In this document: piece after piece, positions 1 through 16,392 of the stretch
Layout: each line of letters begins with the position of its first letter
Numbering within the stretch: position 1 is the first letter of the stretch
Origin: Lachnospiraceae bacterium
Lineage (GTDB): Bacteria; Bacillota; Clostridia; Lachnospirales; Lachnospiraceae
DNA: 33,123 nucleotides
Assembly (NCBI GenBank): GCA_017408025.1
Contig: JAFQVJ010000001.1
Span: 1 to 33,123, forward strand
Direction: 5' to 3'
The notes under the pieces: generated by a model
The model's database searches: none
Seen by the model: the letters and a program-made list of their open reading frames with translations, nothing else
What the model was told of the DNA's origin: nothing
Translations under genes and position numbers: made by a program

Positions 1-66
1 CCCTTTGATAATGTAAATTATGTGTATTGGTGCAAAGGGTGATAATTGGAGAATGAAAAAATTTTG

Positions 67-95
67 TTGACAAAATTGGATTTCGGTTACATAAT
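67..95 (+). promoter_or_regulatory. Sigma-A promoter of pyrG-gltBD
   Basis: TTGACA at 67-72 is followed after exactly 17 bp by CATAAT at 90-95, a 5/6 match to the -10 consensus. Transcription should begin near 101-104, so the attenuator lies entirely in the leader. Confidence 0.8.
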
Positions 96-120
96 GTAAC
101 AAACAAAAAACAAATAGCGA

Positions 121-136
121 CTGACAATGGCGTCAG
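121..136 (+). promoter_or_regulatory. ANTAR-type antiterminator hairpin, pyrG leader
   Basis: Stem CTGAC/GTCAG (121-125 with 132-136) closes a hexaloop AATGGC with A at position 1 and G at position 4, the pattern recognised by ANTAR RNA-binding antiterminators such as NasR and EutV. The 3' arm is also the 5' arm of the following terminator, so the two folds exclude each other. The glnA leader carries the same GAC-AANGGC-GTC core. ANTAR targets usually have two hexaloop hairpins. I find only one canonical loop here, so binding is an inference. Confidence 0.6.
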
Positions 137-183
137 AAATCTAATTACATTCAGTAATGGGTTTCTGACGTCTTTTTATTTTT
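132..183 (+). terminator. Leader attenuator (intrinsic terminator) before pyrG
   Basis: GTCAGAAA (132-139) pairs perfectly with TTTCTGAC (162-169). An inner stem ATTAC/GTAAT stacks near the tip, and a U-rich run follows at 171-183. It sits between promoter and start codon, so it must be conditional. B. subtilis pyrG is also attenuated, but by reiterative transcription of a G-run at the transcript start. No such start is seen here. Confidence 0.75.
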
Positions 184-184
184 G

Positions 185-212
185 TATAGGAAAGTTTCGA
201 AACTTTTCTATA
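185..212 (+). repeat. TATAGGAAAG palindrome, copy 1
   Basis: The 13-bp arms TATAGGAAAGTTT and AAACTTTTCTATA are complementary with one G-U pair and a 2-nt loop. It lies between the attenuator and the pyrG ribosome site. Related palindromes occur in the glnA leader and after metG. Confidence 0.8.
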
Positions 213-237
213 GAACAAGAAATTGGAGGAAAATGTG

Positions 238-1857
238 ATGGCAGTAAAATATGTATTTGTGACGGGTGGTGTTGTATCAGGCTTAGGTAAAGGTATAACA
301 GCAGCGTCCCTTGGCAGGTTACTTAAAGCAAGAGGCTATCAGGTAACTATGCAGAAATTTGATCCATACATAAATGTGGACCCTGGAACGATGAATCCAA
401 TACAGCATGGAGAGGTCTTTGTGACAGATGATGGAACAGAGACTGATTTGGATCTGGGACATTATGAGAGATTTATAGATGAAAGTCTTGACAAGAATTC
501 GAATGTTACAACAGGAAAGATATACTGGTCAGTTCTTAATAAGGAACGCCGAGGGGATTACGGTGGAGGAACAGTTCAGGTTATACCTCACATCACAAAT
601 GAGATTAAGAGTAGATTCTATCAGAGCAAGGATAGTGAAGATAATAGAATAGCAATTATAGAAGTTGGAGGAACTGTCGGTGATATAGAGAGCCAGCCAT
701 TTCTTGAGGCTATAAGACAGTTTCAGCATGAAGTGGGACATGAAAATGCAGTTCTTATCCATGTAACGCTGATACCTTATCTCAAAGCGTCAGGCGAGAT
801 TAAGACTAAACCTACGCAGCAGAGCGTAAAGGAGCTTCAGGGAATGGGATTATGGCCGGATGTACTGGTGTGCAGAAGTGAACATCCACTTCCGGAAGAG
901 GTTAAGAAAAAGATAGCACAGTTTTGTAATGTACCGGAAGGTAATGTATTGCAGAATCTTGATGTTGAATATTTATATGAAGCGCCATTGGCAATGGAAC
1001 AGGAGAGATTAGCTCAGGTAGTATGCGAAGCATTGAATCTGGCATGCCCAGAGCCAGATCTATCAGATTGGAAACAGATGGTTAAAAATCTGAGACATCC
1101 TGAGATGGATGTGGAGATAGCCGTGGTAGGAAAATATATACAGCTTCATGATGCATACTTAAGTGTTGTGGAGGCGTTGAAGCACGGTGGTATAGCGGCA
1201 AAGGCAAGTGTAAAGATTCGATGGATAGATTCAGAGGAGCTTACAAGAGAAAATGCAGCATATGTATTACAGGGAGTTCATGGAGTTCTTGTACCTGGAG
1301 GCTTTGGAACAAGAGGAACAGAAGGTAAAATTGTGGCAATAGAGTACGCCAGAGAGCAGAAAATTCCATTCTTAGGAATATGTCTTGGTATGCAGATGGC
1401 GATAGTAGAGTTTGCAAGAAATGTATTAGGCTATAAGGATGCACACAGCATAGAGTTGAAGCCTGATACAACCTATCCGGTTATAGCACTAATGGCTGAA
1501 CAGAATGGTGTTGTGAACATAGGTGGAACATTAAGACTTGGAGCATATCCATGTAAGCTCAAGGAAAATAGTCTCGCCCATAAGCTGTATGGAGCAACGG
1601 ACATAAGTGAGCGTCATCGTCATCGCTATGAAGTTAATAATGATTACAGAGAAGAATTGGAAAGTCATGGTATGACATTATCGGGACAGTCTCCTGATGG
1701 AAGAATAGTGGAGATGGTTGAGATAAGTGACCATCCATATTTCATCGGAACACAGGGCCATCCGGAATTTAAATCACGCCCTAACAAGCCACATCCATTA
1801 TTCAGGGGACTTATAATGGCAGCAGTAGAATATGAAAATCAGCTAACTAATCAGTAG
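238..1857 (+). CDS. pyrG: CTP synthase (glutamine-hydrolysing)
   Basis: A 539-residue enzyme that makes CTP from UTP, ATP and glutamine, the last step of pyrimidine nucleotide synthesis in the cytosol. The N-terminal synthase (amidoligase) domain, roughly residues 1-265, opens with the hallmark [13 protein letters not shown]-loop. The C-terminal class I glutamine amidotransferase domain, about 290-535, has the oxyanion motif PGGFG and the nucleophile elbow GICLGMQ with its catalytic Cys. The closing His-Glu pair is in GHPEF. Length is normal for the family. I place the start at 238 because the GGAGGA ribosome site lies just upstream, inside the longer frame that opens with TTG at 223. It is the first gene of a unit with gltB and gltD, behind an attenuator. 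Confidence 0.97.
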
Positions 1858-1882
1858 CAAATGGGAAGATACTGGTTAGTTA
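1844..1882 (+). other. Intercistronic stem-loop over the pyrG stop codon
   Basis: A 13-bp stem (1844-1856 with 1870-1882, one G-U pair) encloses a 13-nt loop and covers the pyrG stop codon. No U-tract follows, so it is unlikely to terminate. A role in mRNA processing, stability or setting the pyrG:gltB ratio is possible. Confidence 0.55.
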
Positions 1883-1903
1883 CGGAGTCAGGAGGAATAG
1901 AGA

Positions 1904-4900
1904 ATGAGAGAAATAACACAGGAAATCAGAGATATAGGAACACAGCAAACAGAGATAGAGCAGGTGCAGACAAAGAGAAGGGGTAGGGGTCTGTACAGAC
2001 CAGAATTTGAGCATGACAACTGTGGTATCGGAGCAGTTATAAACAGCAAGGGCATAAAGACACATGGTACAGTAGAAAATGCACTTCACATAGTAGAAAA
2101 TCTTGAGCATAGAGCGGGAAAGGATGCAGAGGGAAAAACTGGTGACGGTGTTGGTATTCTTTTACAGATTTGTCATAGCTTCTTTAAAAAGGAGTGCGCA
2201 AAGCTTGGCATCGCTCTTGGCGATGAAAGGGAATATGGCATTGCACAGATATTTTTTCCAAGCGACGAGCTTAAATATAAGCAGGCAAAGAAAATGTTTG
2301 AGATAATAGTAGCAAAGGAAGATCTTGAGATTCTTGGATACAGAGATGTGCCAAATTTTCCTGAAGTATTAGGTCACAAGGCTAGAGAGTGCATGCCTAG
2401 AATCCAGCAGATATTTATAAAGAAGCCGGCTAATGTAGAGAAGGGTCTTGCCTTTGACAGAAAGCTTTACATAGCCAGAAGAGAGTTTGAACAGAGTAAT
2501 GACAATGCATATATTGTATCTATGTCCAGCAGAACTATTGTCTACAAAGGAATGTTTCTTGTAGGTGAGCTTAGAACATTTTTTGCCGACCTTCAGGATG
2601 AGGCATATGAGTCAGCTATAGCTCTTGTACATTCAAGATTTAGTACAAATACAAACCCAAGCTGGAAGAGAGCTCATCCAAACAGATTTATCGTTCATAA
2701 TGGTGAGATTAATACAATTCGTGGAAATGCAGATAAGATGCTTGCCCGTGAGGAGACCATGGAATCGGAGCTTCTTAAGGGACAGCTTCATAAAATACTT
2801 CCAGTGGTAGACACCAGAGGTTCAGATTCAGCCATGCTGGACAATACACTTGAGTTTCTTGTAATGAGTGGAATGGAGCTTCCGCTGGCGGTAATGATTA
2901 CAATTCCTGAGCCTTGGAGCAATAACAAGACATTAAGTGATGAGGAGACAGCCTTCTATCAGTATTACGCAACGATGATGGAGCCATGGGACGGACCGGC
3001 ATCAATCATATTCTCAGATGGAGATGTAGTAGGTGCGGTTCTTGACAGAAATGGTCTTAGACCATCCAGATATTATGTATTGAAGAATGGCGATGTTGTA
3101 CTTTCATCAGAGGTTGGAGCTGTAGAGATTGATGAGGAGACTATTATCAAAAAGGAGAGATTACATCCGGGAAAAATGCTTCTTATCGATACAGTTAAGG
3201 GTGAGATAATGGATGATGAGCAGGTAAAGGCAAAGTACATCACAAAGCAGCCATACGGTGAATGGATTGACAGTAATCTCTTGGAACTCAGGGACTTGAA
3301 GATTCCAAACAAGAGAGTTGAAGAATATAATGATACACAGAGAAAGCAGCTTCAGAAAGCATTTGGTTACACATACGAGGAATACAAGAATTCCATAAGA
3401 GCCATGGCATTAAACGGGGGAGAGGCCATAGCAGCCATGGGTACAGATATTCCATTGGCAGCATTGTCAGAGCATCAGCCACCTTTATTTGATTATTTCA
3501 AGCAGTTGTTTGCTCAGGTTACAAATCCGCCTATTGATGCTATCAGAGAGGAAATCGTTACAAGTACTACAATATATGCAGGAAAGAAAGGAAATCTCCT
3601 TGAGGAGAAGGCAGAGAATTGCCATGTGCTCAAGATAGAGAATCCAATACTGACAAATACAGATATGTTGAAAATTAAAAATATGAATCGCCCTGGATTT
3701 AAGGTGTCAGTTATACCTATCACATATTACAAGAGTGCAAAGCTTGAGAGAGCCATTGACCGCCTGTGTATAGAGGTAGATAAGGCATATAGAGAGGGTG
3801 CAAATATTCTTGTGCTGTCAGACAGAGGCGTGGACGAAAATCACGTGCCAATGCCATCACTTCTTGCAGTGTCAGCTGTTCATCAGCATCTTGTAAGAAC
3901 TAAGAAGCAGACATCACTTGCACTTATACTTGAGTCTGGTGAGCCAAGAGAGGTACATCACTTTGCAACACTTCTTGGATATGGTGCATGTGCTGTCAAT
4001 CCATACCTTGCCATTGACACAATAAAGGAGCTTATAGATGAACATTTATTGGATAAAGAATATAATGCAGCAGTTGATGATTATGCGTCAGCAGTTATTC
4101 ATGGCATAGTTAAGATTGCATCGAAGATGGGTATATCCACTATTCAGTCATATCAGGGTGCAAAGATATTTGAGGCTATAGGTATATCTGAAAATGTTAT
4201 AGATAAATATTTCGCAGGAACAGTCAGCCGTGTAGGCGGTATTGATATGGAGGATATTGAGAGTCAGGTTGAAAACAGACATTCTAAGGCATTTGACCCA
4301 CTTGGACTTGAAACAGACTTAACGCTTGACAGTGTAGGTAAGCATAAGAGAAGAAGCGGTGGCGAGGAACACCGATATAATCCAGAGACAATTCATGCAT
4401 TGCAACAGGCTACATGGACAGGAGACTACAACCTATTCAAGGAATATACATCTATGATTGACGGAGAGAGAACAGGATATCTAAGAAGCCTTATGGATTT
4501 CAATTATCCTGAGGAGGGTATCTCCATAGATGAGGTTGAAAGTGTAGATAAAATCGTTAAAAGATTTAAGACTGGTGCCATGTCATACGGTTCTATCTCT
4601 GGGGAGGCTCATGAAACATTGGCAATAGCTATGAATCGTCTTCACGGTAAGTCAAACAGTGGTGAGGGCGGTGAGAGTGATGAGAGACTTGATTCGGCAG
4701 GAACGGAGAACGACAGATGTTCAGCTATCAAGCAGGTTGCATCCGGCAGATTTGGTGTAACAAGCAGATACCTTGTAAGTGCAAAGGAAATTCAGATAAA
4801 GATGGCACAGGGTGCTAAGCCGGGCGAGGGTGGACATCTTCCGGGCACAAAGGTATATCCATGGATTGCCAAGACAAGACATTCCACACCGGGAGTAAGC

Positions 4901-6499
4901 CTTATATCTCCACCACCACATCACGATATTTACTCTATCGAGGATTTGGCACAGCTAATTTACGACTTAAAAAATGCAAATAAATACGCAGATATCTCTG
5001 TAAAGCTTGTATCTGAGGCAGGTGTAGGAACAATTGCAGCAGGTGTTGCAAAGGCAGGAGCACAGACCGTTCTTATATCAGGCTATGACGGCGGTACAGG
5101 TGCTGCACCTGAAAGCTCTATCCACAATGCCGGTCTTCCTTGGGAGCTTGGTCTGGCAGAGACACATCAGACTCTTATCAAGAATGGTCTTAGAAACAGG
5201 GTACGCATCGAGACAGACGGAAAGCTTATGAGTGGTAGAGATGTTGTTATCGCGGCATTGCTCGGCGCTGAGGAATTCGGCTTCGCAACAGCTCCACTTG
5301 TAACTATGGGCTGTGTAATGATGAGAGTATGTAACTTAGATACATGTCCTGTAGGTGTGGCAACTCAGAATCCAGAGCTTAGAAAGAGATTTGCAGGTAA
5401 GCCTGAGTATGTTGAGAACTTCATGAGATTTATAGCTATGGAGCTTCGTGAGTATATGGCAAAATTAGGTATTCGTACTGTAAATGAATTAGTGGGAAGA
5501 ACTGATTTATTGAAGATGAAGGAGTGTCCTGAAAAATTTTCAGTGGATGGAAAATCTGTACAGATAGGTAATTCGGCGAAGTCGATGTCAGTAACTGAGA
5601 AGATGTTAAAAAAGATGGATCTAAGCCAGATACTTGACAATCCTTTTGCAAATGATGACCAGTGTGTCACATTTATGCCAGAGCAGAAGTATGATTTCGG
5701 TTTGGAGTATACTCTTGATGACAAGGTGTTATTGAAGGAACTTGGAGGTGCTGTTAAAAAGGGAGCAAAGGCATCTCTTGATATAAAGGTAGGTAATACA
5801 GACAGAGCATTTGGTACAATGCTTGGCGCGGAGATTACACGTAATCACAAGACAGGTCTTTCTGAGGATACCATAACAGTAAACGCTACCGGAGCAGGTG
5901 GACAGAGCTTTGGAGCATTCATTCCAAAGGGGCTTACAATCAATCTTTGCGGTGATACAAATGACTACTTTGGCAAAGGACTCTCTGGCGGTAAGCTTGT
6001 TGTTTATCCTCCAAAGAACAGAAGCTATAAGGCAGAAGAAAATATTATCGCAGGAAATGTTGCATTGTACGGAGCTACATCAGGTAAGGCATTTATAAAT
6101 GGTATTGCAGGAGAGAGATTTGCAGTGAGAAATTCTGGCGCATATGCGGTAGTAGAGGGTGTTGGAGAGCATGGCTGTGAGTACATGACAGGTGGCAGAG
6201 TAGTTGTACTCGGAAGAACGGGCAAGAACTTTGCTGCTGGTATGAGCGGTGGTATCGCTTATGTAATAGATGAGGACAACAAGCTCTATAAGAATCTTAA
6301 CAAGGCTATGATATTGATAGAAAGAGTGGAGGAAGAGCAGGATATAGAGGAGCTTAGAACACTTATAGAGGAGCACGTAAAAGCAACTGGTTCAGAGAGA
6401 GGAAAACAGATTCTCGACGACTTTGAGGAGTATTTACCTAAGTTTAAAAAGATTATTCCAAGAGAATATAAGCAGACCTTGAGACAACTTGAGAAATAG
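1904..6499 (+). CDS. gltB: Glutamate synthase (GOGAT), large subunit
   Basis: A 1531-residue enzyme that hydrolyses glutamine and passes the ammonia to 2-oxoglutarate, giving two glutamates. The class II amidotransferase domain starts at the nucleophile Cys40 in DNCGIG, after a 39-residue leader expected to be removed. The central and FMN-binding synthase domains follow, with the motif GAKPGEGGHLPG. The [3Fe-4S] cysteines are Cys1137, Cys1143 and Cys1148. The C-terminal GXGXG beta-helix fills the last 250 or so residues (for example GTMLGAEI, GAGGQSFGAF, GGRVVVLG). Length matches bacterial GltB. GGAGG lies 9 bp before the ATG. It follows pyrG by 46 bp and precedes the small subunit by 54 bp. 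Confidence 0.97.
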   Translation: MREITQEIRDIGTQQTEIEQVQTKRRGRGLYRPEFEHDNCGIGAVINSKGIKTHGTVENALHIVENLEHRAGKDAEGKTGDGVGILLQICHSFFKKECAKLGIALGDEREYGIAQIFFPSDELKYKQAKKMFEIIVAKEDLEILGYRDVPNFPEVLGHKARECMPRIQQIFIKKPANVEKGLAFDRKLYIARREFEQSNDNAYIVSMSSRTIVYKGMFLVGELRTFFADLQDEAYESAIALVHSRFSTNTNPSWKRAHPNRFIVHNGEINTIRGNADKMLAREETMESELLKGQLHKILPVVDTRGSDSAMLDNTLEFLVMSGMELPLAVMITIPEPWSNNKTLSDEETAFYQYYATMMEPWDGPASIIFSDGDVVGAVLDRNGLRPSRYYVLKNGDVVLSSEVGAVEIDEETIIKKERLHPGKMLLIDTVKGEIMDDEQVKAKYITKQPYGEWIDSNLLELRDLKIPNKRVEEYNDTQRKQLQKAFGYTYEEYKNSIRAMALNGGEAIAAMGTDIPLAALSEHQPPLFDYFKQLFAQVTNPPIDAIREEIVTSTTIYAGKKGNLLEEKAENCHVLKIENPILTNTDMLKIKNMNRPGFKVSVIPITYYKSAKLERAIDRLCIEVDKAYREGANILVLSDRGVDENHVPMPSLLAVSAVHQHLVRTKKQTSLALILESGEPREVHHFATLLGYGACAVNPYLAIDTIKELIDEHLLDKEYNAAVDDYASAVIHGIVKIASKMGISTIQSYQGAKIFEAIGISENVIDKYFAGTVSRVGGIDMEDIESQVENRHSKAFDPLGLETDLTLDSVGKHKRRSGGEEHRYNPETIHALQQATWTGDYNLFKEYTSMIDGERTGYLRSLMDFNYPEEGISIDEVESVDKIVKRFKTGAMSYGSISGEAHETLAIAMNRLHGKSNSGEGGESDERLDSAGTENDRCSAIKQVASGRFGVTSRYLVSAKEIQIKMAQGAKPGEGGHLPGTKVYPWIAKTRHSTPGVSLISPPPHHDIYSIEDLAQLIYDLKNANKYADISVKLVSEAGVGTIAAGVAKAGAQTVLISGYDGGTGAAPESSIHNAGLPWELGLAETHQTLIKNGLRNRVRIETDGKLMSGRDVVIAALLGAEEFGFATAPLVTMGCVMMRVCNLDTCPVGVATQNPELRKRFAGKPEYVENFMRFIAMELREYMAKLGIRTVNELVGRTDLLKMKECPEKFSVDGKSVQIGNSAKSMSVTEKMLKKMDLSQILDNPFANDDQCVTFMPEQKYDFGLEYTLDDKVLLKELGGAVKKGAKASLDIKVGNTDRAFGTMLGAEITRNHKTGLSEDTITVNATGAGGQSFGAFIPKGLTINLCGDTNDYFGKGLSGGKLVVYPPKNRSYKAEENIIAGNVALYGATSGKAFINGIAGERFAVRNSGAYAVVEGVGEHGCEYMTGGRVVVLGRTGKNFAAGMSGGIAYVIDEDNKLYKNLNKAMILIERVEEEQDIEELRTLIEEHVKATGSERGKQILDDFEEYLPKFKKIIPREYKQTLRQLEK

Positions 6500-6553
6500 C
6501 AAGTAAGAGGAAAACGTAGCAGCCGGTTTCAAGAAATATAAGGAGAGAAAAAG

Positions 6554-8038
6554 ATGGGAAAGCCAACAGGATTTTTAGAATATGAGAGAAAAACAGCTTC
6601 AGCAGAAAAACCACTGGAGCGAATAAAGCATTTCAACGAATTTCATACACCCCTTTCATTGGAAGAGCAACAGAAGCAGGGAGCGCGTTGTATGGAATGT
6701 GGTGTGCCATTTTGTCAAAGTGGTGCTATGTTAGGAGGGATGGCTTCAGGCTGTCCTCTCCATAATCTTGTGCCAGAAACAAACGAATTAGTGTACAACG
6801 GAAATTGGGGGCAGGCATATAAAAGACTTTCGAAGACACATTGCTTTCCAGAGTTTACAAGCCGTGTCTGCCCTGCACTTTGCGAGGCGGCGTGTACATG
6901 TAATGTAAATGGTGAGCCAGTGGCAACAAAGGAAAATGAGAGAGCTATTATCGAGACTGCGTTTGCAGAGGGATGGGTTAAGGCTGAGCCACCGAAGGCG
7001 AGAACAGGCAAGAGGGTTGCTATAATAGGTAGTGGTCCAGCAGGTCTCTCGGCGGCATACTGGCTCAATAAGAGAGGCCATGAGGTGACGGTATACGAAA
7101 GAAACGACAGACTTGGTGGCCTGCTTAGATATGGTATACCAAATATGAAGCTTGAAAAGAGTGTTATCGATAGAAGAATTGCTCTTATGGAAGAAGAGGG
7201 TGTTCAGTTTAAGACAGGCGTTAATGTAGGTGTGGATATCAAGGCAGCAGACCTTGCAAAGCAGTATGACAGAGTAATACTTGCCTGTGGTGCATCCAAT
7301 CCAAGAGATATAAGCGTTCCGGGAAGAGAGAGCGAGAATATACATTTTGCAGTTGATTATCTTACATCTGTTACAAAGAGTCTTCTTGATTCTGAGTTTA
7401 AGGATGGTAAGGCAATTCTGGCCAAGGGCAAGCATGTCCTTGTAATCGGTGGCGGTGATACAGGAAATGACTGTGTGGGAACAGCAATCCGTCAGGGGGC
7501 AAAGTCAGTTACACAGCTCGAGATGATGCCAAAGCCACCGGTATGCAGAGCTACATCTAACCCATGGCCGCAGTGGCCAAAGGTCTTAAAGACTGATTAC
7601 GGTCAGGAAGAGGCTATAGCGGTATTTGGCGATGATCCAAGAGTTTACCAGACAACTGTAAAGGAATTTGTGGCAGATAAGAATGGTAAGGTGAAGAAGG
7701 CTGTCATCATAAGTCTTCAATCGAAGAAGGATGACAAGACAGGCAGAATGATGATGGTACCTGTGGAAGGTAGTGAGAAGACGATTGATGCAGAGCTTGT
7801 ACTCATAGCAGCAGGCTTCCTGGGAAGTGAAAGGTATGTGACAGACGACTTCAAGGTAAAGCTTGATGGCAGAACAAATGTTGAGACAGGGTCAGGCTCT
7901 TATGCAACATCAGTGGACAATGTATTTGCAGCAGGTGATGTAAGAAGAGGTCAGTCGCTTGTAGTTTGGGCGATTGCTGAAGGACGAAATGTAGCTAAAG
8001 CAGTGGATGAGTCGTTGATGGGGTACAGTAATCTATAG
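6554..8038 (+). CDS. gltD: Glutamate synthase, small (NADPH) subunit
   Basis: A 494-residue partner of GltB that carries FAD, binds NAD(P)H and sends electrons through [4Fe-4S] clusters to the large subunit. The N-terminal Cys-rich domain has Cys46, Cys49 and Cys54 and a second group near VCPALCEAACTC. A first dinucleotide fold begins at GSGPAGLSAAYW (FAD) and a second at GGGDTGNDCVG (NADPH). The C-terminal FAD segment has VFAAGDVRRGQS. Start has AAGGAGAG 8 bp upstream. Last gene of the pyrG unit. I see no clear terminator in the 42 bp before the glnA promoter, so some read-through into glnA is possible. Confidence 0.96.
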   Translation: MGKPTGFLEYERKTASAEKPLERIKHFNEFHTPLSLEEQQKQGARCMECGVPFCQSGAMLGGMASGCPLHNLVPETNELVYNGNWGQAYKRLSKTHCFPEFTSRVCPALCEAACTCNVNGEPVATKENERAIIETAFAEGWVKAEPPKARTGKRVAIIGSGPAGLSAAYWLNKRGHEVTVYERNDRLGGLLRYGIPNMKLEKSVIDRRIALMEEEGVQFKTGVNVGVDIKAADLAKQYDRVILACGASNPRDISVPGRESENIHFAVDYLTSVTKSLLDSEFKDGKAILAKGKHVLVIGGGDTGNDCVGTAIRQGAKSVTQLEMMPKPPVCRATSNPWPQWPKVLKTDYGQEEAIAVFGDDPRVYQTTVKEFVADKNGKVKKAVIISLQSKKDDKTGRMMMVPVEGSEKTIDAELVLIAAGFLGSERYVTDDFKVKLDGRTNVETGSGSYATSVDNVFAAGDVRRGQSLVVWAIAEGRNVAKAVDESLMGYSNL

Positions 8039-8080
8039 AACGAACTGAAGATTTATCTGAAAATTTAATACACTAAACTA

Positions 8081-8109
8081 TTGACAACCCCAAATTCTGT
8101 CGTTATAAT
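8081..8109 (+). promoter_or_regulatory. Perfect consensus sigma-A promoter of glnA
   Basis: TTGACA (8081-8086), 17-bp spacer, TATAAT (8104-8109). The start of transcription is expected near 8115-8117, only a few bases before the antiterminator hairpin. With such a strong promoter, control is likely to rest on the attenuator downstream. Confidence 0.9.
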
Positions 8110-8119
8110 ACCAAACATA

Positions 8120-8137
8120 AAAGACAAGGGCGTCTTT
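8120..8137 (+). promoter_or_regulatory. ANTAR-type antiterminator hairpin, glnA leader
   Basis: A perfect 6-bp stem AAAGAC/GTCTTT closes the hexaloop AAGGGC with A1 and G4. Its 3' arm (8132-8137) is shared with the 5' arm of the attenuator. The core matches the pyrG leader hairpin at 121-136. The ANTAR protein encoded right after glnA is the obvious candidate ligand. Confidence 0.65.
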
Positions 8138-8170
8138 ATGCAGAAAATACTGTGTAAAGTGCGCTCTTTT
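8130..8170 (+). terminator. Leader attenuator before glnA
   Basis: A 14-bp stem (8130-8143 with 8150-8164, one bulged T and a few G-U pairs) carries the hexaloop AAAATA, followed by TCTTTT. It cannot form when hairpin 8120-8137 is held. The right arm also overlaps the left end of the long inverted repeat at 8157. Confidence 0.65.
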
Positions 8171-8227
8171 GTTATTGTATAGGAAAGCTAGCGAAACTTT
8201 TCTATACAGTAACAAAAGAACGCACTT
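8157..8227 (+). repeat. TATAGGAAAG palindrome, copy 2 (31-bp stem)
   Basis: Positions 8157-8187 pair with 8197-8227 over 31 bp with one mismatch and two G-U pairs, leaving a 9-nt loop. The core TATAGGAAAG is the same as in the pyrG leader and the post-metG repeat, and only the flanks differ. In glnA mRNA this gives a very stable hairpin upstream of the ribosome site. Confidence 0.85.
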
Positions 8228-8267
8228 GCACGAGAAGAAAATGTCAGCTAAAGCTGACGGTGCTCGG
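8228..8267 (+). repeat. Structured repeat module B in the glnA leader
   Basis: GCAC (8228-8231) pairs with GTGC (8260-8263). A purine-rich unpaired 5' side, AGAAGAAAAT, separates this from a 7-bp hairpin GTCAGCT/AGCTGAC with loop AA. The same layout recurs at 32844-32893 and, truncated, at 32650. In both complete copies it directly follows the TATAGGAAAG palindrome. Confidence 0.7.
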
Positions 8268-8294
8268 ACAGCAAAGTAGAAAGGAAAATGTGAT

Positions 8295-9620
8295 ATGGAA
8301 AACTATAGTAAAGCAGAGATACTACAGCTTGTCGAAGACGAAGGGGTGGAATTCATACGTCTTCAATTTACAGGACAGTGTGGTGTGTTGAAGAATGTGG
8401 CAATTCCAGCCAGCAAGCTATGTAAGGCACTTGAAAATCGTTGTAGCATAGATAGAGCAGCCATTGAGGGATTTGCAGATGGCGAGGAAGTGGATTTGTA
8501 TTTAAAGCCGGATTTAGACACATTTACAATTCTTCCATGGAGACCACAGCAGGGTAAGGTTGCAAGATTTATATGCGATGTGATTGATGAGAATGGACAG
8601 GAATATGAAGGAAGCTCAAGGTATATACTAAAAAAAGTGATGGAACAGGCATCAGCCAAGGGATATACACTTAATATTAATCCGGAGTGTGAGTTTTATT
8701 TGTTCCATACAGATGACAATGGTCTGCCAACGACTATCACCCACGAGAAGGCTGGATATCTTGATACATCACCAGTTGATTTGGGAGAAAATACAAGAAG
8801 AGATATTATATTGGCCCTAGAGGATATGGGATATGAGATTGATTCATCTCACCATGAGATAGCACCGGCACAGCATGAGATAGATTTTACATTTGAAAAT
8901 GCCATAAAGACAGCTGATAAGATAGTGACATTTAAGATGGCAGTGAGGACAATAGCAAAAAGATACGGCCTTCAGGCAACCTTTATGCCAAAACCAAAGG
9001 CTGACGCAAATGGTTCTGGAATGCATGTGAATATGCGCCTGATGAAGGGTGGAAAAAATGTTTTTGTTGACGAGAATGGTGAGCTTAGTGAAGAAGGAAA
9101 AGCATTTATGGCAGGAATACTTCACCACATTCCAGGTATGACAGCCGTGCTAAATCCAATAGTTAATTCATATAAGCGCTTAGTTCCAGGAACAGGAGCA
9201 CCATCGGATATTACATGGTCGCAAAAACAGAGAAGTGCACTTATACATGTGAGAAAGCAGATAGGTGGAGGCTTGGATTTGGAGCTTAGAAGCCCAGATG
9301 CAGCAGCAGACCCATACCTTGTATTTGCACTTTGTCTGGCAGCAGGAATGGACGGAATAGAACAAAATATGGTAGCACCTTCAGAGCTTACAGAGGATAT
9401 TCGTAATTTTTCAGAGGAGGAGAAGGAGACAAAAGGTATAGAGAGTCTTCCGGAAAATCTTGGAGAAGCTATAAAAGCTATGAAAAAGGACACACTTGTA
9501 AGAGAGACACTTGGATCAGAATTTGCCACAGATTACATGAAGGCAAAGAGAGCAGAGTGGAAGGGCTATCTTGAACAGATTTCTGAATGGGAAATAGATA
9601 AATACCTGTACCTTGTGTAG
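8295..9620 (+). CDS. glnA: Glutamine synthetase type I, divergent form
   Basis: A 441-residue enzyme making glutamine from glutamate, ammonia and ATP, expected as a cytosolic dodecamer. It has the short Gram-positive (GSI-alpha) length. Visible conserved segments are the N-terminal beta-grasp (residues 1-100), the metal and ATP site motifs NPECEFYLF, HHEIAPAQHEID and NGSGMHVN, YKRLVPG, and ELRSPD near the C-terminus. Two places differ from the B. subtilis enzyme as I recall it. The segment with the feedback-inhibition Arg62 reads EGFADGEE, without Arg. The usual IRIP segment reads IHVR. GAAAGGAAAATGTGAT provides the ribosome site. It is the first gene of a unit with the ANTAR regulator, tRNA amidation genes and dapL. 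Confidence 0.93.
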   Translation: MENYSKAEILQLVEDEGVEFIRLQFTGQCGVLKNVAIPASKLCKALENRCSIDRAAIEGFADGEEVDLYLKPDLDTFTILPWRPQQGKVARFICDVIDENGQEYEGSSRYILKKVMEQASAKGYTLNINPECEFYLFHTDDNGLPTTITHEKAGYLDTSPVDLGENTRRDIILALEDMGYEIDSSHHEIAPAQHEIDFTFENAIKTADKIVTFKMAVRTIAKRYGLQATFMPKPKADANGSGMHVNMRLMKGGKNVFVDENGELSEEGKAFMAGILHHIPGMTAVLNPIVNSYKRLVPGTGAPSDITWSQKQRSALIHVRKQIGGGLDLELRSPDAAADPYLVFALCLAAGMDGIEQNMVAPSELTEDIRNFSEEEKETKGIESLPENLGEAIKAMKKDTLVRETLGSEFATDYMKAKRAEWKGYLEQISEWEIDKYLYLV

Positions 9621-9672
9621 AGGTTATGTTGTACAAGATTTGCTCCGCATTGACAGAAAACGGAGGCAGTGA

Positions 9673-10227
9673 ATGAGTACGATTGTTATAGTTTTGCGAA
9701 AGCTGGAGGATTCGAAGAAAATCCAGAAGATTCTTATGAATCACGGATATACAGGGGTATTCACTTGTGCGACTGCTGCATTAGCTATTCAGGAAATAAG
9801 TAATCATAGTCATGGTCTTGTCATAAGTGGCTATAGATTACAGGATATGTACTACTTGGATTTGAAGGAAAGTCTTCCGTCAGGCTTCGAGCTTCTTCTT
9901 ATGGGTTCGGCGAATGTTATAAGTGATGCAGAAGCAGGAGTTCTCTCCATAGAGACGCCTATAAAGGTATTCGACTTAGTAAATACAGTGGATATGATAT
10001 TGGCGCAGATTGAAAGGAGAGTAAAGCGGGAAAAAAAGGCAAAGAAAAATGTACGAAGCGAAAAAGAGGAAATGTATATAAAAAAAGCAAAGTATCTTCT
10101 GATGGAGAGAAATCATTTATCAGAAGAGGAGGCATTTAGGTATATTCAAAAGAGTAGTATGGATAATAGTACAAATATGGTTGAGACCGCACAGATGATT
10201 TTGACATTGTTATACGAAGAGGCGTAG
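9673..10227 (+). CDS. nitR: ANTAR-domain RNA-binding antiterminator (NitR type)
   Basis: A 184-residue protein with an N-terminal receiver-like fold (about 1-115), a charged linker rich in Lys/Glu (about 116-133) and a C-terminal ANTAR three-helix RNA-binding domain (about 134-182; KAKYLLMERNHLSEEEAFRY and the MVETAQMIL helix). ANTAR proteins stop terminator formation by holding hexaloop hairpins, and a homologue beside glnA in solventogenic clostridia has been called NitR. The receiver is degenerate: the strand that should carry the phospho-acceptor Asp reads VISGYRL, and the N-terminal acidic pair is missing, so phosphorylation control is unlikely. Start has CGGAGG upstream. Likely targets are its own glnA leader and the pyrG leader. 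The symbol rests on context. Confidence 0.85.
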   Translation: MSTIVIVLRKLEDSKKIQKILMNHGYTGVFTCATAALAIQEISNHSHGLVISGYRLQDMYYLDLKESLPSGFELLLMGSANVISDAEAGVLSIETPIKVFDLVNTVDMILAQIERRVKREKKAKKNVRSEKEEMYIKKAKYLLMERNHLSEEEAFRYIQKSSMDNSTNMVETAQMILTLLYEEA

Positions 10228-10307
10228 GCCTGGTGTGAAGCAATGGGTTTTTGATGATACGAAGTAGCCAGCTTTACACATAATATATTATAAAGGAGGA
10301 TGTAGAT

Positions 10308-11639
10308 ATGGAATTTGTTACTGGTACAATCGACGAAAGAAGTATAGGGCTTAAGGAGTTATTTAACAATAATAATCAGGGCAATAACGTTTTTATCGAA
10401 GGAGCAGTCCATAGCATCCGAAATATGGGTGAGATAACATTTATCATCTTAAGAAAGCGGGACGGTCTGGTACAGACTGTACTTGAAGAAAATAAGCTTA
10501 ATAGCCAGTCTGATAAGGTCAGAGAGGGCGATTACATAAGGGTAAAGGGAACTGTAAGAGATGAGGAGAGAGCACCACATGGCAAGGAAATATGCATAGA
10601 GAGCTATGAGCATATCACGAGGATAACTGAAAGCTTACCTATAGCCATAGACAAATGGAAGCTAAATACGTCATTGGAGACAAAGCTTAATCACAGAGCT
10701 ATAGCCCTAAGGAACATAAGAGAGAGGGCAAAGTTCCGTATACAGGAAGCCATAGGCAGAGGTTTTAGAGAATATCTGCAAAAGGAAGGCTTTACAGAGA
10801 TACATACACCGAAGGTTGGTGCAAAGAGCGCCGAGGGTGGAGCTAATATGTTTAAGCTGACATATTTTCACAGACCTGCGGTATTGCAGCAGAGTCCACA
10901 GCTCTATAAGCAGATGATGGTAGGTGTATTTGACAGAGTATTTGAGGTCGGACCAGTATTCAGAGCTGAAAAGCACAATACAAGACGTCATCTCAACGAG
11001 TACACAAGTATGGACTTTGAGATGGGATATATTCAGAGCTTTATGGATATATGTCAGATGGAGACTGGATTTTTACAGTATACCATGGAGCTTTTAGCAA
11101 ATGAGTATGCCGACGAACTTAGAATATTGAAGCTTGAGCTTCCAAAGGTGGATAAAATACCATATGTAAGATTTGATGAAGCCAAAAAGCTTGTGTCGGA
11201 AAAATATGGAAAAACCATAAAAAATCCCTTTGACTTAGAGCCAGAGGAAGAGGAGCTAATTGGAAAATATTTTAAAGAGGAGTATGATTCAGACTTTGTG
11301 TTTGTAACACATTATCCATCTAAGAAGCGTCCATTTTATGCGCTGGATGACCCATCAGATGACAGATATACTTTGAGTTTTGATTTGCTCTATAAAGGAC
11401 TTGAGATAACAACAGGCGGACAGAGAATACATGAGTATGATATGCTGCTTGAAAAGATTGAAAAAAAGGGTATGACAGAGGAAGGCCTTGAGGATTATCT
11501 GGATGTATTCAAATACGGAATGCCACCACATGGCGGCTTGGGAATAGGTCTTGAGAGACTGACAATGCAGCTTTTGGGAGAGGACAATGTCAGGGAAGCT
11601 TGTCTGTTCCCAAGAGATTTGAGCAGACTAACGCCGTAG
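10308..11639 (+). CDS. aspS: Aspartyl-tRNA synthetase, archaeal type, probably non-discriminating
   Basis: A 443-residue class II synthetase. The N-terminal OB-fold anticodon domain (about 1-115) leads into a class II catalytic core. Motif 2 is [15 protein letters not shown] and motif 3 [10 protein letters not shown]. The C-terminus RDLSRLTP is typical of archaeal-type AspRS and unlike AsnRS. It is far shorter than the bacterial AspRS of about 590 residues and lacks the GAD insertion. In clostridia this form charges Asp onto both tRNA-Asp and tRNA-Asn, and GatCAB then amidates the mischarged Asp-tRNA-Asn. The presence of gatCAB downstream fits that. Start has AAAGGAGG upstream. Dual specificity is inferred, not seen. 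Confidence 0.92.
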
Positions 11640-11671
11640 GGAAAATGGTTATCAATGAAAGGAGTTTAAGG

Positions 11672-12886
11672 ATGTTTAAGATAAATGAAAATTATTTAAA
11701 GTTACCAGGAAGTTATTTATTTTCAACAATAGCAAAGAAGGTCAATGCATATGGGAATGAAAACCCGGAGAAAAAGATTATTCGTCTGGGTATCGGTGAT
11801 GTAACACAGCCATTGGCACCAGCTATTATCGACGCTCTCCACAAGGCTGTGGATGAGATGGGAAGCGAGCAGGGATTTCATGGATATGCACCGGATTTAG
11901 GTTATGAGTTTCTTAGAAATACTATTGCAAAGAAGGATTATGAGGCAAGAGGCTGTAACATAGCTCCTGATGAGATATTTGTATCTGATGGAGCAAAGAG
12001 CGATTCAGGAAATATTCAGGAGATATTTGCAACTGATAACAAAATTGCAGTTTGTGACCCTGTTTATCCGGTGTATGTAGACACAAATGTTATGGCTGGC
12101 AGAACAGGTACTTATGACATAAATACAGAGGTTTGGAGTGACGTTATCTACATGCCATGTAATGCAGATAATAATTTTGCACCAGAGCTTCCTAAGGAGA
12201 TACCAGACCTTATCTATCTGTGTTTTCCAAATAATCCAACAGGAGCAACCATCACAAAGGATGAGCTTCAGAAATGGGTTGATTATGCCAACAAGAATGG
12301 CTGTGTTATAATATATGATGCGGCTTATGAGGCATATATATCAGAGGAGAACGTTCCACACAGCATATATGAGTGTGAGGGAGCCAGAACATGTGCCATA
12401 GAGCTTCATTCATTTTCCAAGAATGCCGGGTTTACCGGGCTTCGTCTGGGATATACAGTTGTGCCAAAGGATTTGAAGAGTGGTGATGTAATGCTTCATT
12501 CACTTTGGGCAAGAAGACATGGTACAAAGTATAATGGTGCACCATATATTGTACAGCGTGCCGGCGAGGCTGTTTATTCAGAGGAAGGCAGAAAGCAGCT
12601 TAAAGCACAGGTTGATTATTATATGAACAATGCCAAGTATATATTAAATGGATTAAAGGAGGCAGGTTACACTGTATCAGGTGGTGTCAATGCCCCATAC
12701 ATCTGGCTAAAGACACCGCATAAGATGACAAGCTGGCAGTTCTTTGATTATCTTCTTGAAAATGCAAATGTAGTAGGTACACCAGGTTCCGGATTTGGTC
12801 CTAACGGCGAGGGATATTTCAGACTGACAGCATTTGGTACATATGAGAATACTGTAGAGGCTATTGAGAGAATTAAGGCACTGTAA
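11672..12886 (+). CDS. dapL: LL-diaminopimelate aminotransferase
   Basis: A 404-residue fold-type I PLP enzyme that converts tetrahydrodipicolinate plus glutamate directly to LL-diaminopimelate, feeding lysine and peptidoglycan synthesis. The N-terminus [16 protein letters not shown] and the segment [11 protein letters not shown] are characteristic of DapL. The PLP Lys is Lys250 in [15 protein letters not shown], and FPNNPTGA is the cofactor-ring motif. I place the start at 11672, where GGAG lies 7 bp upstream, rather than at earlier in-frame starts inside aspS. It follows aspS by 32 bp. Use of glutamate as amino donor links it to the rest of the operon. Confidence 0.95.
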
Positions 12887-12990
12887 AAGAAAATATAAGT
12901 TCTAAGTATGTGAAATACTGTGGACAGATAATAGTCGAGGAACGTAAAAAATCAGGTTTACAGTTATATAGATGTACAAGGAGGGATATG

Positions 12991-13308
12991 ATGTCCGAAA
13001 TAATGATGGATGATAATGGTGAAAAAAAGATAGATGACAAGACCATGGATAATGTGGAAATTTTGGCAAAGCTGGCCCTGACAGGTGAAGAGCGCTATAA
13101 AGCTATGGCTGAGATGGAAAAGATACTGTCATATGTAGATAAGCTTAATGAGCTTGATACTAAGGATGTAGAGCCACTTGTTCATGTTATGCCACATACA
13201 AATGTTTTTCGTGAGGATGAGATTGAAAATGATGATGGTGCGGAAGCAACATTGTCAAATGCACCAAAAAAGAAGGAAAATCAATTTATGGTACCCAAGA
13301 CTGTGTAA
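12991..13308 (+). CDS. gatC: Asp/Glu-tRNA amidotransferase subunit C
   Basis: A 105-residue small subunit that clamps GatA to GatB in the GatCAB transamidosome. Family landmarks are an N-terminal helix with LAKLALTGEE, the helix MAEMEKILSYVDKLNELDT, and the wrapping tail VEPLVHVMPHTNVFREDE. I choose ATG 12991 because GGAGG lies 6 bp upstream. ATG 12988 is adjacent and only 3 bp from that site. It begins after a 104-bp gap following dapL and is tightly coupled to gatA (12 bp). Confidence 0.92.
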   Translation: MSEIMMDDNGEKKIDDKTMDNVEILAKLALTGEERYKAMAEMEKILSYVDKLNELDTKDVEPLVHVMPHTNVFREDEIENDDGAEATLSNAPKKKENQFMVPKTV

Positions 13309-13320
13309 GGAGGAAGGCTC

Positions 13321-14850
13321 ATGGAAATAATAGGTATGACAGCGTTGGAGCTTGCCGAGAAAATAAAAAATGGGGAAGTGACAGTTAAAGACGCTGTTGA
13401 AGCATATATAAAACAGATAGAAGAGAAGGACGGGCAGTATAACGCATTTATCACTGTGGCAGAGAAGGAAAAGCTGGAGCAGAGAATTGCAGAGGTACAG
13501 CAGGGAATTGCTGATGGAAAATATAGAAGCAACCTTGCAGGTGTACCCATCGCTGTAAAGGATAATATTTGCACTAAGGGCATGAAGACAACATGTGCGT
13601 CAAAGATGCTTGAAGGCTTCGTGCCTACATATGATGCCACAGCAGTGACAAAGCTTGAAGAAGCAGGTATGATAGTTATAGGAAAGACAAACATGGATGA
13701 GTTTGCTATGGGAAGTACTACAGAGACTTCTGCATTTGGTGTCACCAGAAATCCATGGAATACTGACCATGTTCCCGGTGGTTCATCAGGTGGCTCATGT
13801 GCAGCAGTGGCAGCAGGAGAAGCACCCATGGCACTGGGTTCAGATACAGGTGGATCTATAAGACAGCCGGCCTCATACTGCGGTGTAACAGGTCTTAAGC
13901 CAACATATGGCAGAGTGTCCCGCATGGGTCTTATAGCTTATGCATCATCACTTGACCAGATTGGTCCAGTGGGAAAAAATGTGGAGGACTGTGCTGCGCT
14001 TTACCAGATTATAGCTGGGCATGATGAGAAGGACAGCACTTCATTGAAAAAGACGGTTGAAAAAATTGATGACCTTGCCATGGCGAGCCTTAGAGGAAAG
14101 ACCATAGGCATACCAAAGGAATATATAGGCGAAGGAACTGATGATGAAGTAAAATCTGCCATCTTAAAGGCTGTTATGATTATGGAGGATGCCGGTGCGC
14201 GAGTAGAGTTTTTCTCATTGAAGATGGTTGATTATGTTATTCCGGCTTATTATATTATCGCATGTGCGGAAGCAAGCTCAAATCTTGAGAGATTCGATGG
14301 CGTGAAGTACGGATACAGAAATATGGAAGCTGAGGGTCTTCACGAGATGTATAAGTTAAGTCGTGCAGAAGGCTTCGGTGAGGAGGTCAAGAGAAGAATT
14401 CTCTTAGGGTCATTCGTACTCAGTGCCGGTTATTATGACGCATATTACATTAAGGCGCTTAAGACAAAGCGACTTATCAAAGAAGAATTTGATGAGGCAT
14501 TTAAGAAATATGATTGTATATTAGCGCCTGCTGCACCAACGACGGCACCTAAGCTCGGAACCAGCTTAAGCGACCCATTGCAGATGTACTTAAGCGATAT
14601 TTATACTGTAGCGGTGAATTTATGTGGATTTCCTGCCTTATCTATGCCATGTGGTGTGGATAGCAAGGGGCTTCCTATTGGTGTACAATTTATAGGTGAT
14701 TTATTCAATGAGAATAAGATATTAAATATGGCAACAGCTTACGAAAAGGTTCGCGAAGATTTTTCATGTGGAAAATTTTCAAGTAAGAATAATCGAGACA
14801 AGGAGCCTGTACAAAATATTTTGAAAATAAAACAGGAAGGAGAGGTGTGA
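13321..14850 (+). CDS. gatA: Asp/Glu-tRNA amidotransferase subunit A (amidase)
   Basis: A 509-residue amidase-signature enzyme that strips ammonia from glutamine for transfer onto Asp-tRNA-Asn or Glu-tRNA-Gln. The catalytic Lys-Ser-Ser triad is visible: Lys80 (AVKDNIC), Ser155 in the Gly/Ser-rich GGSSGGS segment, and Ser179 in GSDTGGSIRQP. AGGAGG stands 7 bp before the ATG. The stop lies 4 bp before gatB, so translation is probably coupled. The last 25 or so residues are a charged extension beyond the usual end. Confidence 0.96.
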   Translation: MEIIGMTALELAEKIKNGEVTVKDAVEAYIKQIEEKDGQYNAFITVAEKEKLEQRIAEVQQGIADGKYRSNLAGVPIAVKDNICTKGMKTTCASKMLEGFVPTYDATAVTKLEEAGMIVIGKTNMDEFAMGSTTETSAFGVTRNPWNTDHVPGGSSGGSCAAVAAGEAPMALGSDTGGSIRQPASYCGVTGLKPTYGRVSRMGLIAYASSLDQIGPVGKNVEDCAALYQIIAGHDEKDSTSLKKTVEKIDDLAMASLRGKTIGIPKEYIGEGTDDEVKSAILKAVMIMEDAGARVEFFSLKMVDYVIPAYYIIACAEASSNLERFDGVKYGYRNMEAEGLHEMYKLSRAEGFGEEVKRRILLGSFVLSAGYYDAYYIKALKTKRLIKEEFDEAFKKYDCILAPAAPTTAPKLGTSLSDPLQMYLSDIYTVAVNLCGFPALSMPCGVDSKGLPIGVQFIGDLFNENKILNMATAYEKVREDFSCGKFSSKNNRDKEPVQNILKIKQEGEV

Positions 14851-14854
14851 GAAT

Positions 14855-16285
14855 ATGGCGAAGCAGTATGAAACAGTCATTGGGCTTGAAGTCCATGTAG
14901 AGCTTGCAACAAAGACAAAGATATTCTGCGGATGTTCTACAAGGTTTGGCGGTGCAGTCAACTCACATACCTGTCCTGTATGTACAGGTATGCCGGGGGC
15001 GTTGCCTGTTCTTAATAAGAAGGTTGTAAAGTTTGCTATCGCCTTAGGAAAGGCTACAAATTGTACGATAACTCAGTATTGCAGATTCGACAGAAAGAAT
15101 TATTTTTACCCTGATAATCCACAAAATTATCAGATATCACAGCTTTATCTGCCAATATGCAGGGATGGACATATCGATGTTGAAACCTCTAATGGCACAA
15201 AAACCATCAGAATCCATGAGATGCATATGGAGGAGGATGCAGGAAAGCTTATTCATGATAATTACGAGGACTGCTCACTTGTAGACTACAACAGAAGTGG
15301 TGTGCCTCTTATAGAGATTGTTTCAGAGCCTGATATGCGCACAGCTGATGAGGTTATAGCGTATCTTGAAAAGCTTAGAATGATATGTCAGTATCTGGGA
15401 GTATCAGACTGTAAGCTTCAGGAGGGCTCTATGAGAGCCGATGTAAACCTGTCGGTGCGTGAGATTGGAAGTGAGAAGCTTGGTACAAGAACAGAGATGA
15501 AGAATCTAAACTCATTTAAGGCAATTTTGCATGCAATCGAAGGAGAGCGAGAGAGACAGATAGAGCTATTAGAGAGTGGTAGAGAGATTATTCAGGAGAC
15601 GAGACGTTGGGATGACAACAAAGAGGCATCATTTACCATGCGTTCAAAGGAGGATGCCAAGGATTACAGATATTTCCCGGAGCCAGATTTGCAGCCAATA
15701 CTTATATCAGACCAGTGGATAGATGAAATAAAAGCAAAACAGCCGGAATTTCAGCCGGAGAAGGCTGAACGCTACAAAGAAGAGTACGGTTTATCAGACT
15801 ATGATACTGATATTCTTACTCAGAACAGACATATGGCTGATATGTTTGAGGAGACAGCCAAGCTTTGTGGCAATCCTAAGAAGGCGGCTAACTGGTTTAT
15901 GGGCGAGGTGCTTCGCACCCTTAAGGACAAGGCCATGGACCCAGAGGAATTGACATTTTCGCCAAAGAATCTTGCTGCTATTATCAAGGCAATGGATGAG
16001 GGTAAGATTAATCAAGGCAATGCCCAAAAGGTCTTTGCGCAGGTTTTTATATCGGATGTAGAGCCACTGGCGTACATGGAAGAGCACGGTCTTATGATGG
16101 TATCAGATGCAGGTGCTATCGAGAAGGTTGTAGATGAGGTGCTTGCTGAGAACGAAGGAGTAATAGCAGACTACCATAATGGCAAGGATAAAGCATTTGG
16201 ATTTCTGGTAGGTCAGGTTATGAAGAAGATGAAGGGCAAGGGAGACCCGGCCAAGGTAAATGAGGTGCTTAAAGGCAAGCTGTAA
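14855..16285 (+). CDS. gatB: Asp/Glu-tRNA amidotransferase subunit B
   Basis: A 476-residue subunit that binds the mischarged tRNA, phosphorylates its aspartyl or glutamyl group and receives ammonia from GatA. The family opening YETVIGLEVHVEL is present, followed by CGCSTRFGG and CPVCTGMPG (metal-site Cys pairs), DRKNYFYPDNP, EEDAGKL, and the TRRWDD segment. The C-terminal YqeY-like tail domain spans about residues 330-476 and ends VNEVLKGKL. Last gene of the glnA unit, with a terminator 73 bp after the stop. Confidence 0.97.
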   Translation: MAKQYETVIGLEVHVELATKTKIFCGCSTRFGGAVNSHTCPVCTGMPGALPVLNKKVVKFAIALGKATNCTITQYCRFDRKNYFYPDNPQNYQISQLYLPICRDGHIDVETSNGTKTIRIHEMHMEEDAGKLIHDNYEDCSLVDYNRSGVPLIEIVSEPDMRTADEVIAYLEKLRMICQYLGVSDCKLQEGSMRADVNLSVREIGSEKLGTRTEMKNLNSFKAILHAIEGERERQIELLESGREIIQETRRWDDNKEASFTMRSKEDAKDYRYFPEPDLQPILISDQWIDEIKAKQPEFQPEKAERYKEEYGLSDYDTDILTQNRHMADMFEETAKLCGNPKKAANWFMGEVLRTLKDKAMDPEELTFSPKNLAAIIKAMDEGKINQGNAQKVFAQVFISDVEPLAYMEEHGLMMVSDAGAIEKVVDEVLAENEGVIADYHNGKDKAFGFLVGQVMKKMKGKGDPAKVNEVLKGKL

Positions 16286-16357
16286 ATGAGAAAGCTTAAA
16301 GAATAGATAAATAATTACTATGGCGCTACTTATACACCATATATAATAACATCAAAG

Positions 16358-16392
16358 AAGGCTGGTTGCAGTTATACTGCATCCAGCCTTTT
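16358..16392 (+). terminator. Intrinsic terminator of the glnA-gatB unit
   Basis: AAGGCTGG and CCAGCCTT flank TTGCAG/CTGCA, giving a 14-position stem (16358-16371 with 16377-16390) with a single T-T mismatch and a 5-nt loop. It runs into TTTT. Confidence 0.85.

Follow-up and report, generated by a model that had tools for sequence, protein, structure and literature searches.

Single-hexaloop attenuators upstream of pyrG-gltBD and glnA-nitR in a Lachnospiraceae genome: a predicted glutamine regulon of the ANTAR protein NitR

In a Lachnospiraceae bacterium, pyrG-gltBD and glnA-nitR are each preceded by a leader in which a short hairpin with a six-base loop overlaps an intrinsic terminator, which raises the question of whether one RNA-binding protein, the ANTAR protein NitR, controls both, and with a single hexaloop in each. 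The DNA analyzed (the window) is an entire contig (C63) of 33,123 bases, from an assembly of 2.35 Mb that is 91% complete. It carries, in this order, pyrG, gltB, gltD, glnA and nitR, followed by genes which we take, from resemblance and not from family searches, to be aspS, a dapL-like aminotransferase gene, gatC, gatA and gatB (Table 1). NitR control of the genes for glutamine synthetase and glutamate synthase (GS/GOGAT) is already known, and is reported for Clostridium saccharobutylicum (Stutz et al. 2007, as credited in a review). We estimate a probability of about 0.85 that NitR controls both window leaders as transcription attenuators, each through a single ANTAR hexaloop, the binding of NitR being predicted. 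The computed evidence consists of two structures that exclude each other and covary, a conserved loop, the kinds of genes nearby, the joint occurrence with ANTAR genes and the lack of a conserved second hexaloop.

In both leaders, the 3' half of the hexaloop and the 3' arm of the hairpin are reused by the overlapping terminator, and in the pyrG leader positions 129-136 are common to the two structures. The first-pass annotation, made without database searches, had proposed one antiterminator with an A1/G4 hexaloop (A at loop position 1, G at position 4) for both leaders, and the hairpin and terminator folds bear this out. Its description of a 3' arm borrowed by the terminator also stands, yet the loop bases are used as well, and the glnA terminator starts from 8126 rather than 8130. 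Both leaders thus show the features of an ANTAR target, namely an A1/G4 hexaloop, a stem of at least 3 base pairs (bp) and overlap with an intrinsic terminator. Folding energies are about -21 kcal/mol for both terminators (z -8.2 for pyrG and -6.2 for glnA), as compared to -6.0 (pyrG) and -4.8 kcal/mol (glnA) for the lone hexaloop hairpins, and termination should therefore be the default. The same two leaders own the two top promoter matches within positions 1-17000, and the predicted start of the pyrG transcript falls in an A-rich stretch near 101-103. A strict scan for a hexaloop with an overlapping terminator gave 16 rows in 353 kb of window and relatives, counting the window pyrG site twice and including some rows that are plainly non-leader, versus 2.0 per shuffled pass; it caught the pyrG site and missed the glnA site, because the glnA terminator is bulged.

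The hairpin might be no more than a by-product of the sequence of plain terminators, and its 3' arm, common to both structures, speaks for this, since part of the hairpin conservation is thereby forced. The covariance model (R1) was built from 14 leaders (alignment A3, with the L043 and L046 leaders left out) and contains five terminator pairs only. Because the model contains no pairs for the hexaloop stem, pairing of this stem in held-out elements is an independent test. A stem of at least 4 bp occurs in 81% of 73 distinct held-out elements, versus 28% after the 3' arms are permuted across elements (maximum of 2000 permutations, 45%), and in 80% of the 93 elements of a further set (shuffled 37%, largest 55%). 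Of 35 matches from the pyrG survey, 31 entered the held-out test, the others being two matches in L137 (the same as G035) and two antisense rows. Among 79 aligned out-of-training matches (alignment A4, with a few antisense or doubtful rows; R2 has one antisense artefact, L126:5913-), double-changed cells number 94 in the hairpin versus 37.3 shuffled, and 29 in the terminator versus 0.7, the latter count leaning towards the terminator because the alignment was fitted to it. Both counts clearly drop when the partner is slid by 1 to 3 columns. Hence the hexaloop hairpin and the terminator, although mutually exclusive, both covary. The 5' arm of the hairpin, which no modelled terminator pair includes, covaries with the 3' arm, and the first two loop positions are conserved, as they already were in the training set; that the hairpin is a mere by-product is barely credible.

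The protein that would bind these hairpins is encoded directly behind glnA, where the annotation had placed an ANTAR gene: the nitR product carries the ANTAR domain PF03861 (56 bits, gathering cut-off 27.3) and is the only ANTAR match found in its 91% complete genome. Its predicted structure (predicted local distance difference test 94.9, predicted template modelling score 0.72) resembles Rv1626, EutV and AmiR (1qo0). No Response_reg match was obtained in Pfam at E <= 0.001, and the predicted fold is still receiver-like. The phospho-acceptor Asp of EutV-type receivers, which we place by eye, from the receiver motif, at the end of receiver strand 3, is absent from NitR and its aligned homologues; the signal therefore probably enters through a partner or a metabolite rather than by phosphorylation.

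The distribution of the element also points to NitR. Within the family, 120 genomes were drawn at a completeness of at least 95%, with the window's own genome included at 91%, and the element occurs in 71 of the 111 ANTAR-bearing genomes versus 1 of the 9 ANTAR-less ones (Fisher p 0.003); the two surveys are taken from the handles to cover the same 120 genomes, 28 handles being absent from the element list. The ANTAR-less exception (G091) is a weak match before an open reading frame (ORF) without a reference match. The proposed tie between hexaloop and NitR is thereby supported. Another RNA-binding protein or a small molecule could bind the hairpins instead, with nitR merely a neighbour, and the 40 ANTAR-bearing genomes that lack an element match at E <= 0.003 would agree with this; such genomes either have sites that escape the model or encode ANTAR proteins that act at different ones. 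Set against it are the co-occurrence itself, the presence of exactly one ANTAR match in 108 of the 111 ANTAR-bearing genomes, and the loops of the held-out elements, which have G4 in 73/73 and A1 in 66/73, with G1 in the remaining 7, although the model itself favours such sequence. The window contains no known Rfam leader at the gathering threshold, and look-up of the two leaders gave sub-threshold matches only, mostly to microRNA families. A different ligand is accordingly very unlikely.

The question of one hexaloop or two bears directly on the published view of ANTAR targets. In the text of Ramesh 2012 (PMC3369931) these are defined as dual hairpins with a short linker, and the dual motif recurs in passages of Stewart 2012 (PMC3369936) and of PMC8164766; a passage of Walshe 2022 (PMC8934654) allows single hexaloops where the time limit set by a moving polymerase is absent. 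In the window, no upstream A1/G4 hexaloop of at least 4 bp was reported in either leader, which are therefore filed as a single-hexaloop variant and not as the dual motif. The leaders could nevertheless be dual, with a second hexaloop that is degenerate or located in the terminator tip, the latter being the earlier suggestion for this locus. Tip A1/G4 hexaloops of at least 4 bp do occur in 8/89 elements (shuffled mean 1.7, largest 5), an excess that is weak evidence because the shuffle also destroys the terminator stem, and the glnA tip, AAAATA, is a hexaloop, though without G4. The pyrG tip is a pentaloop, ATTCA, and at most 9/89 elements have an A1/G4 tip; the tip was thus rejected as a second site. 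Upstream A1/G4 hexaloops (at least 3 bp) are at chance, with 17/89 versus 16.1 in single-base shuffles and, in the further set, 21/93 versus 16.1 (largest 29). Promoter matches of at least 9/12 place the -10 box 4-14 nucleotides (nt) before the hairpin in 50/89 elements (6.6 in single-base shuffles) and 58/93 (7.2), or 108 of the 181 distinct elements; the two sets hold 182, with the Dorea phocaeensis carA element in both. Transcripts should therefore start at or just before the hairpin in these cases, leaving no room for a first hairpin. The corresponding distance is 11 nt in the window glnA leader and 25 nt in the pyrG leader. A class-level sample yielded matches in 30 of 118 genomes, and of its 29 new loci 28 were re-read, with an upstream candidate in 4. 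The single canonical hexaloop per leader noted at first is hence also the rule among the relatives found, and a hidden second one is unlikely. An apparent second complete hairpin-plus-terminator stands 43 nt before one element (L317, ~1500), with a type III glutamine synthetase gene downstream, possibly forming a double gate.

The genes behind the element define the putative regulon of NitR. The covariance search across Lachnospiraceae that had been proposed as a check shows the element to be general before glutamine and ammonium genes. The set comprises 151 elements, 58 from a first survey (matches down to E ~0.012, G039 skipped) and 93 at E <= 0.003, and the target was taken to be the longest of the ORFs that begin no more than 700 nt downstream, named by its best BLAST match among reference proteins. 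Type III glutamine synthetase (38), ammonium transporters (22) and GlnA (21) predominate, followed by PyrG (11), AsnB (8), GltB (7), GltD (1) and PurF (1). Firm targets, with at least 42% identity to glnA, GSIII (type III glutamine synthetase), amt, gltB, pyrG, asnB or purF references, number 107/151, or 93/137 without the 14 training elements. When examples were put through family searches, AsnB, PurF, type III glutamine synthetase and an ammonium transporter with a PII domain were borne out. For the 40 elements that precede other proteins, the same searches identified among the products the small subunit of carbamoyl-phosphate synthase, a glutamate dehydrogenase, a binding protein of amino-acid type and a circularly permuted ATP-grasp protein. 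At class level, one genome has the element before a GMP synthase gene (L318); a class-level "gltB" (L313) was discarded, as glutamine synthetase fits instead. The common denominator is glutamine, which most target enzymes make or spend. Similar genes also recur behind the element at G026:C2:3967 (the circularly permuted ATP-grasp protein), G061:C52:32858, G065:C135:4278 and L308.

The inclusion of pyrG in the putative regulon is supported, yet it is not the oddity it first seemed: in 20 of 80 pyrG loci an R1 element stands on the coding strand, no more than 250 nt 5' of the gene (E <= 0.5), so that pyrG joins other glutamine users as a recurrent target. Of the loci with upstream DNA in which gltB follows pyrG, 14/18 have the element (one of the 14 being from the training set), versus 6/60 others (Fisher p 8e-8); some contigs end soon after pyrG. 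The gene would therefore mostly be controlled as the head of pyrG-gltBD. In the six remaining element-bearing loci, gltB was not found behind pyrG. The enzymes carA and purF encode were each found once as glutamine-using targets, beside gltB and asnB. In D. phocaeensis (L131, on the same contig as G152), the element at 1651-1696 precedes carA, and pyrG, glnA and nitR follow ~4 kb after carA on the same strand, presumably with carB between carA and pyrG. The top pyrG matches among GTDB contigs bear names such as Oliverpabstia, Blautia and Dorea, Oliverpabstia belonging to the Lachnospiraceae. A PyrG match is absent in 5 of 8 same-genus genomes (G001, G002, G004, G006, G007), which is odd for a usually essential enzyme and may reflect incompleteness or a limit of the search.

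The arrangement is shared by relatives. The NitR search matched 40 of 61 genomes, own included, the weaker matches spanning little beyond the ANTAR domain, and nitR adjoins glnA in all 20 best-matching relatives. Of 19 relatives with enough DNA 5' of glnA, 13 have the hexaloop hairpin or one much like it, typically RGGAC-AAAGGC-GTTCT just after a -10 box. In one relative (G035) the operon is the same and elements stand at three places around it: ahead of pyrG, ahead of glnA and, in divergent orientation, ahead of a gene for type III glutamine synthetase. The window's own genome likewise has three sites, the third preceding the gene for an 802-residue family 5 solute-binding (oligopeptide-binding) protein with a permease-like gene behind it; the two-operon regulon envisaged at first is therefore too small.

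Comparison with known systems places these leaders among, and apart from, earlier examples. In Bacillus subtilis, pyrG is governed by a reiterative-transcription attenuator that needs a GGG start; the window pyrG is likewise under predicted attenuation, but its transcript start is predicted in an A-rich stretch. The review passage on C. saccharobutylicum (PMC6316151) describes a protein of the same type and name, NitR, which acts by antitermination of GS/GOGAT genes on nitrogen limitation, and it covers neither leader anatomy nor pyrG or nucleotide genes. Ammonium transporters and glutamate, glutamine and arginine synthase genes already appear as targets in the text of Ramesh 2012 (PMC3369931). 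Enterococcus faecalis EutV, as far as described in passages of PMC3369931 and PMC8934654, has the same A1/G4 hexaloop, a P2 hairpin whose 3' arm overlaps the terminator, and a protein that joins ANTAR to a receiver-like domain and a coiled coil. The window leaders differ in lacking its upstream recruitment hairpin P1 and in the position of the hairpin near the transcript 5' end, and NitR differs in lacking the usual phospho-acceptor Asp. Pseudomonas aeruginosa AmiR resembles NitR in combining a pseudo-receiver with ANTAR (PMC8934654, in part), yet its target, the amiE leader, has both P1 and P2 in the portion of PMC3369936 concerned, and no counterpart of its signal partner AmiC was identified in the present analysis.

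Several observations weigh against single-hexaloop control by NitR. EutV antitermination requires both hexaloops, according to passages of PMC8934654 and PMC3369931, and a single one may therefore not suffice. At least two leaders are dual, before an ammonium transporter gene (L319, 6-nt linker) and in G049 = L121 (22-nt linker), which also means that the scanner is able to see dual arrangements. Residues were matched to EutV by sequence, with numbers inferred from spacing: the equivalent of Tyr164, which stacks on G4 in EutV (PMC8934654), is Phe in NitR and His in the homologue consensus; in favour of NitR, on the other hand, the Met matching Met172 is invariant in 27 aligned proteins. To the ANTAR-bearing genomes without a match must be added the six of 19 glnA leaders without such a hairpin (L038, L041, L047, L048, L049, L051). 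Some of the 40 other proteins behind elements are plainly unrelated, two elements have no ORF, and one gltB (26% identity) and the sole gltD (27%) assignments are weak and were not counted.

With NitR as the proposed ligand, the terminator would fold by default and RNA polymerase would stop before pyrG-gltBD or glnA-nitR. Under nitrogen (glutamine) shortage, NitR would bind the A1/G4 hexaloop as the loop leaves the polymerase, and the short antiterminator hairpin held by NitR would keep the loop bases and 3' arm from the terminator, allowing read-through. The pseudo-receiver would relay the signal without being phosphorylated. Which way control runs, and that nitrogen is the signal, are here taken by analogy from C. 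saccharobutylicum NitR.

The genes from aspS to gatB may be co-transcribed with glnA-nitR. A further hairpin follows each attenuator: a long near-perfect one 3' of the glnA attenuator (8157-8227) and a shorter one 3' of the pyrG attenuator (181-215), the sequence of the latter (TATAGGAAAG..CTTTTCTATA) being related to the former. The TATAGGAAAG hairpin (185-212) was rejected as a dispersed repeat, having no second copy in its own genome within 3 mismatches. Between attenuator and glnA, CGAGAAGAAAATG plus a hairpin (8215-8270) looks similar by eye to L033 ~10470-10530; Rfam Clostridiales-1 matches the window copy of the CGAGAAGAAAATG stretch weakly (20.7 bits, gathering 48), and the L033 copy not at all at E <= 0.1.

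Table 1. Positions of leader elements and genes (window coordinates unless another contig is named)
Feature	Position	Strand	Basis and detail
Promoter of pyrG-gltBD, sigma-70 type, TTGACA-17-CATAAT	67..95	+	Consensus match only, 11/12; TTGACA 67-72, CATAAT 90-95
pyrG-leader antiterminator hairpin, 5 bp, hexaloop AATGGC (A1, G4)	121..136	+	Fold; covariation in relatives; CTGAC 121-125, loop 126-131, GTCAG 132-136
pyrG-leader intrinsic terminator	129..177	+	Stem 129-172, T tract 173-177; covariation in relatives
pyrG, CTP synthase with class-I glutamine amidotransferase domain	238..1857	+	ORF and family search
gltB, glutamate synthase large subunit	1904..6499	+	ORF and family search
gltD, glutamate synthase small subunit	6554..8038	+	ORF and family search
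Promoter of glnA, sigma-70 type, TTGACA-17-TATAAT	8081..8109	+	Consensus match only, 12/12; TTGACA 8081-8086, TATAAT 8104-8109
glnA-leader antiterminator hairpin, 6 bp, hexaloop AAGGGC (A1, G4)	8120..8137	+	Starts ~+5 of predicted transcript; AAAGAC 8120-8125, loop 8126-8131, GTCTTT 8132-8137
glnA-leader intrinsic terminator	8126..8170	+	Stem 8126-8168, tip loop AAAATA, T tract from 8167
glnA, glutamine synthetase	8295..9620	+	ORF and family search
nitR, ANTAR protein, receiver-like domain	9673..10227	+	Family search, homologues, predicted structure
aspS, dapL-like aminotransferase, gatC, gatA, gatB	10308..16285	+	Names by resemblance
Third site, loop AAAGGG	G000:C60:25906-25950 = L085 5007-5051	-	Covariance-model match

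Literature searches, with the supplementary tables of Ramesh 2012 and the text of Stutz 2007 outside their scope, found no paper joining ANTAR with pyrG regulation or with a single-hexaloop attenuator. As far as these searches show, single-hexaloop attenuators as the rule of a clade, their position close to where transcription begins and the inclusion of pyrG, asnB, purF and carA are new. It seems somewhat probable that such attenuators form a large natural class, with the hairpin often at the transcript 5' end and without a recruitment hairpin of the type considered essential for EutV, and that they make up a glutamine regulon of ammonium uptake, glutamine synthesis and the steps that consume glutamine in the synthesis of pyrimidines (pyrG, carA), purines (purF, possibly guaA) and asparagine (asnB), operated by a non-phosphorylated NitR. 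In the published model an ANTAR dimer requires two hexaloops to beat the terminator, whereas here more than 100 predicted attenuators have one, and their often narrow spacing from the promoter offers a direct test of what the first hairpin does. The prediction for the family is that gut Lachnospiraceae would couple the synthesis of nucleotides and asparagine to the supply of nitrogen via one RNA-binding protein.

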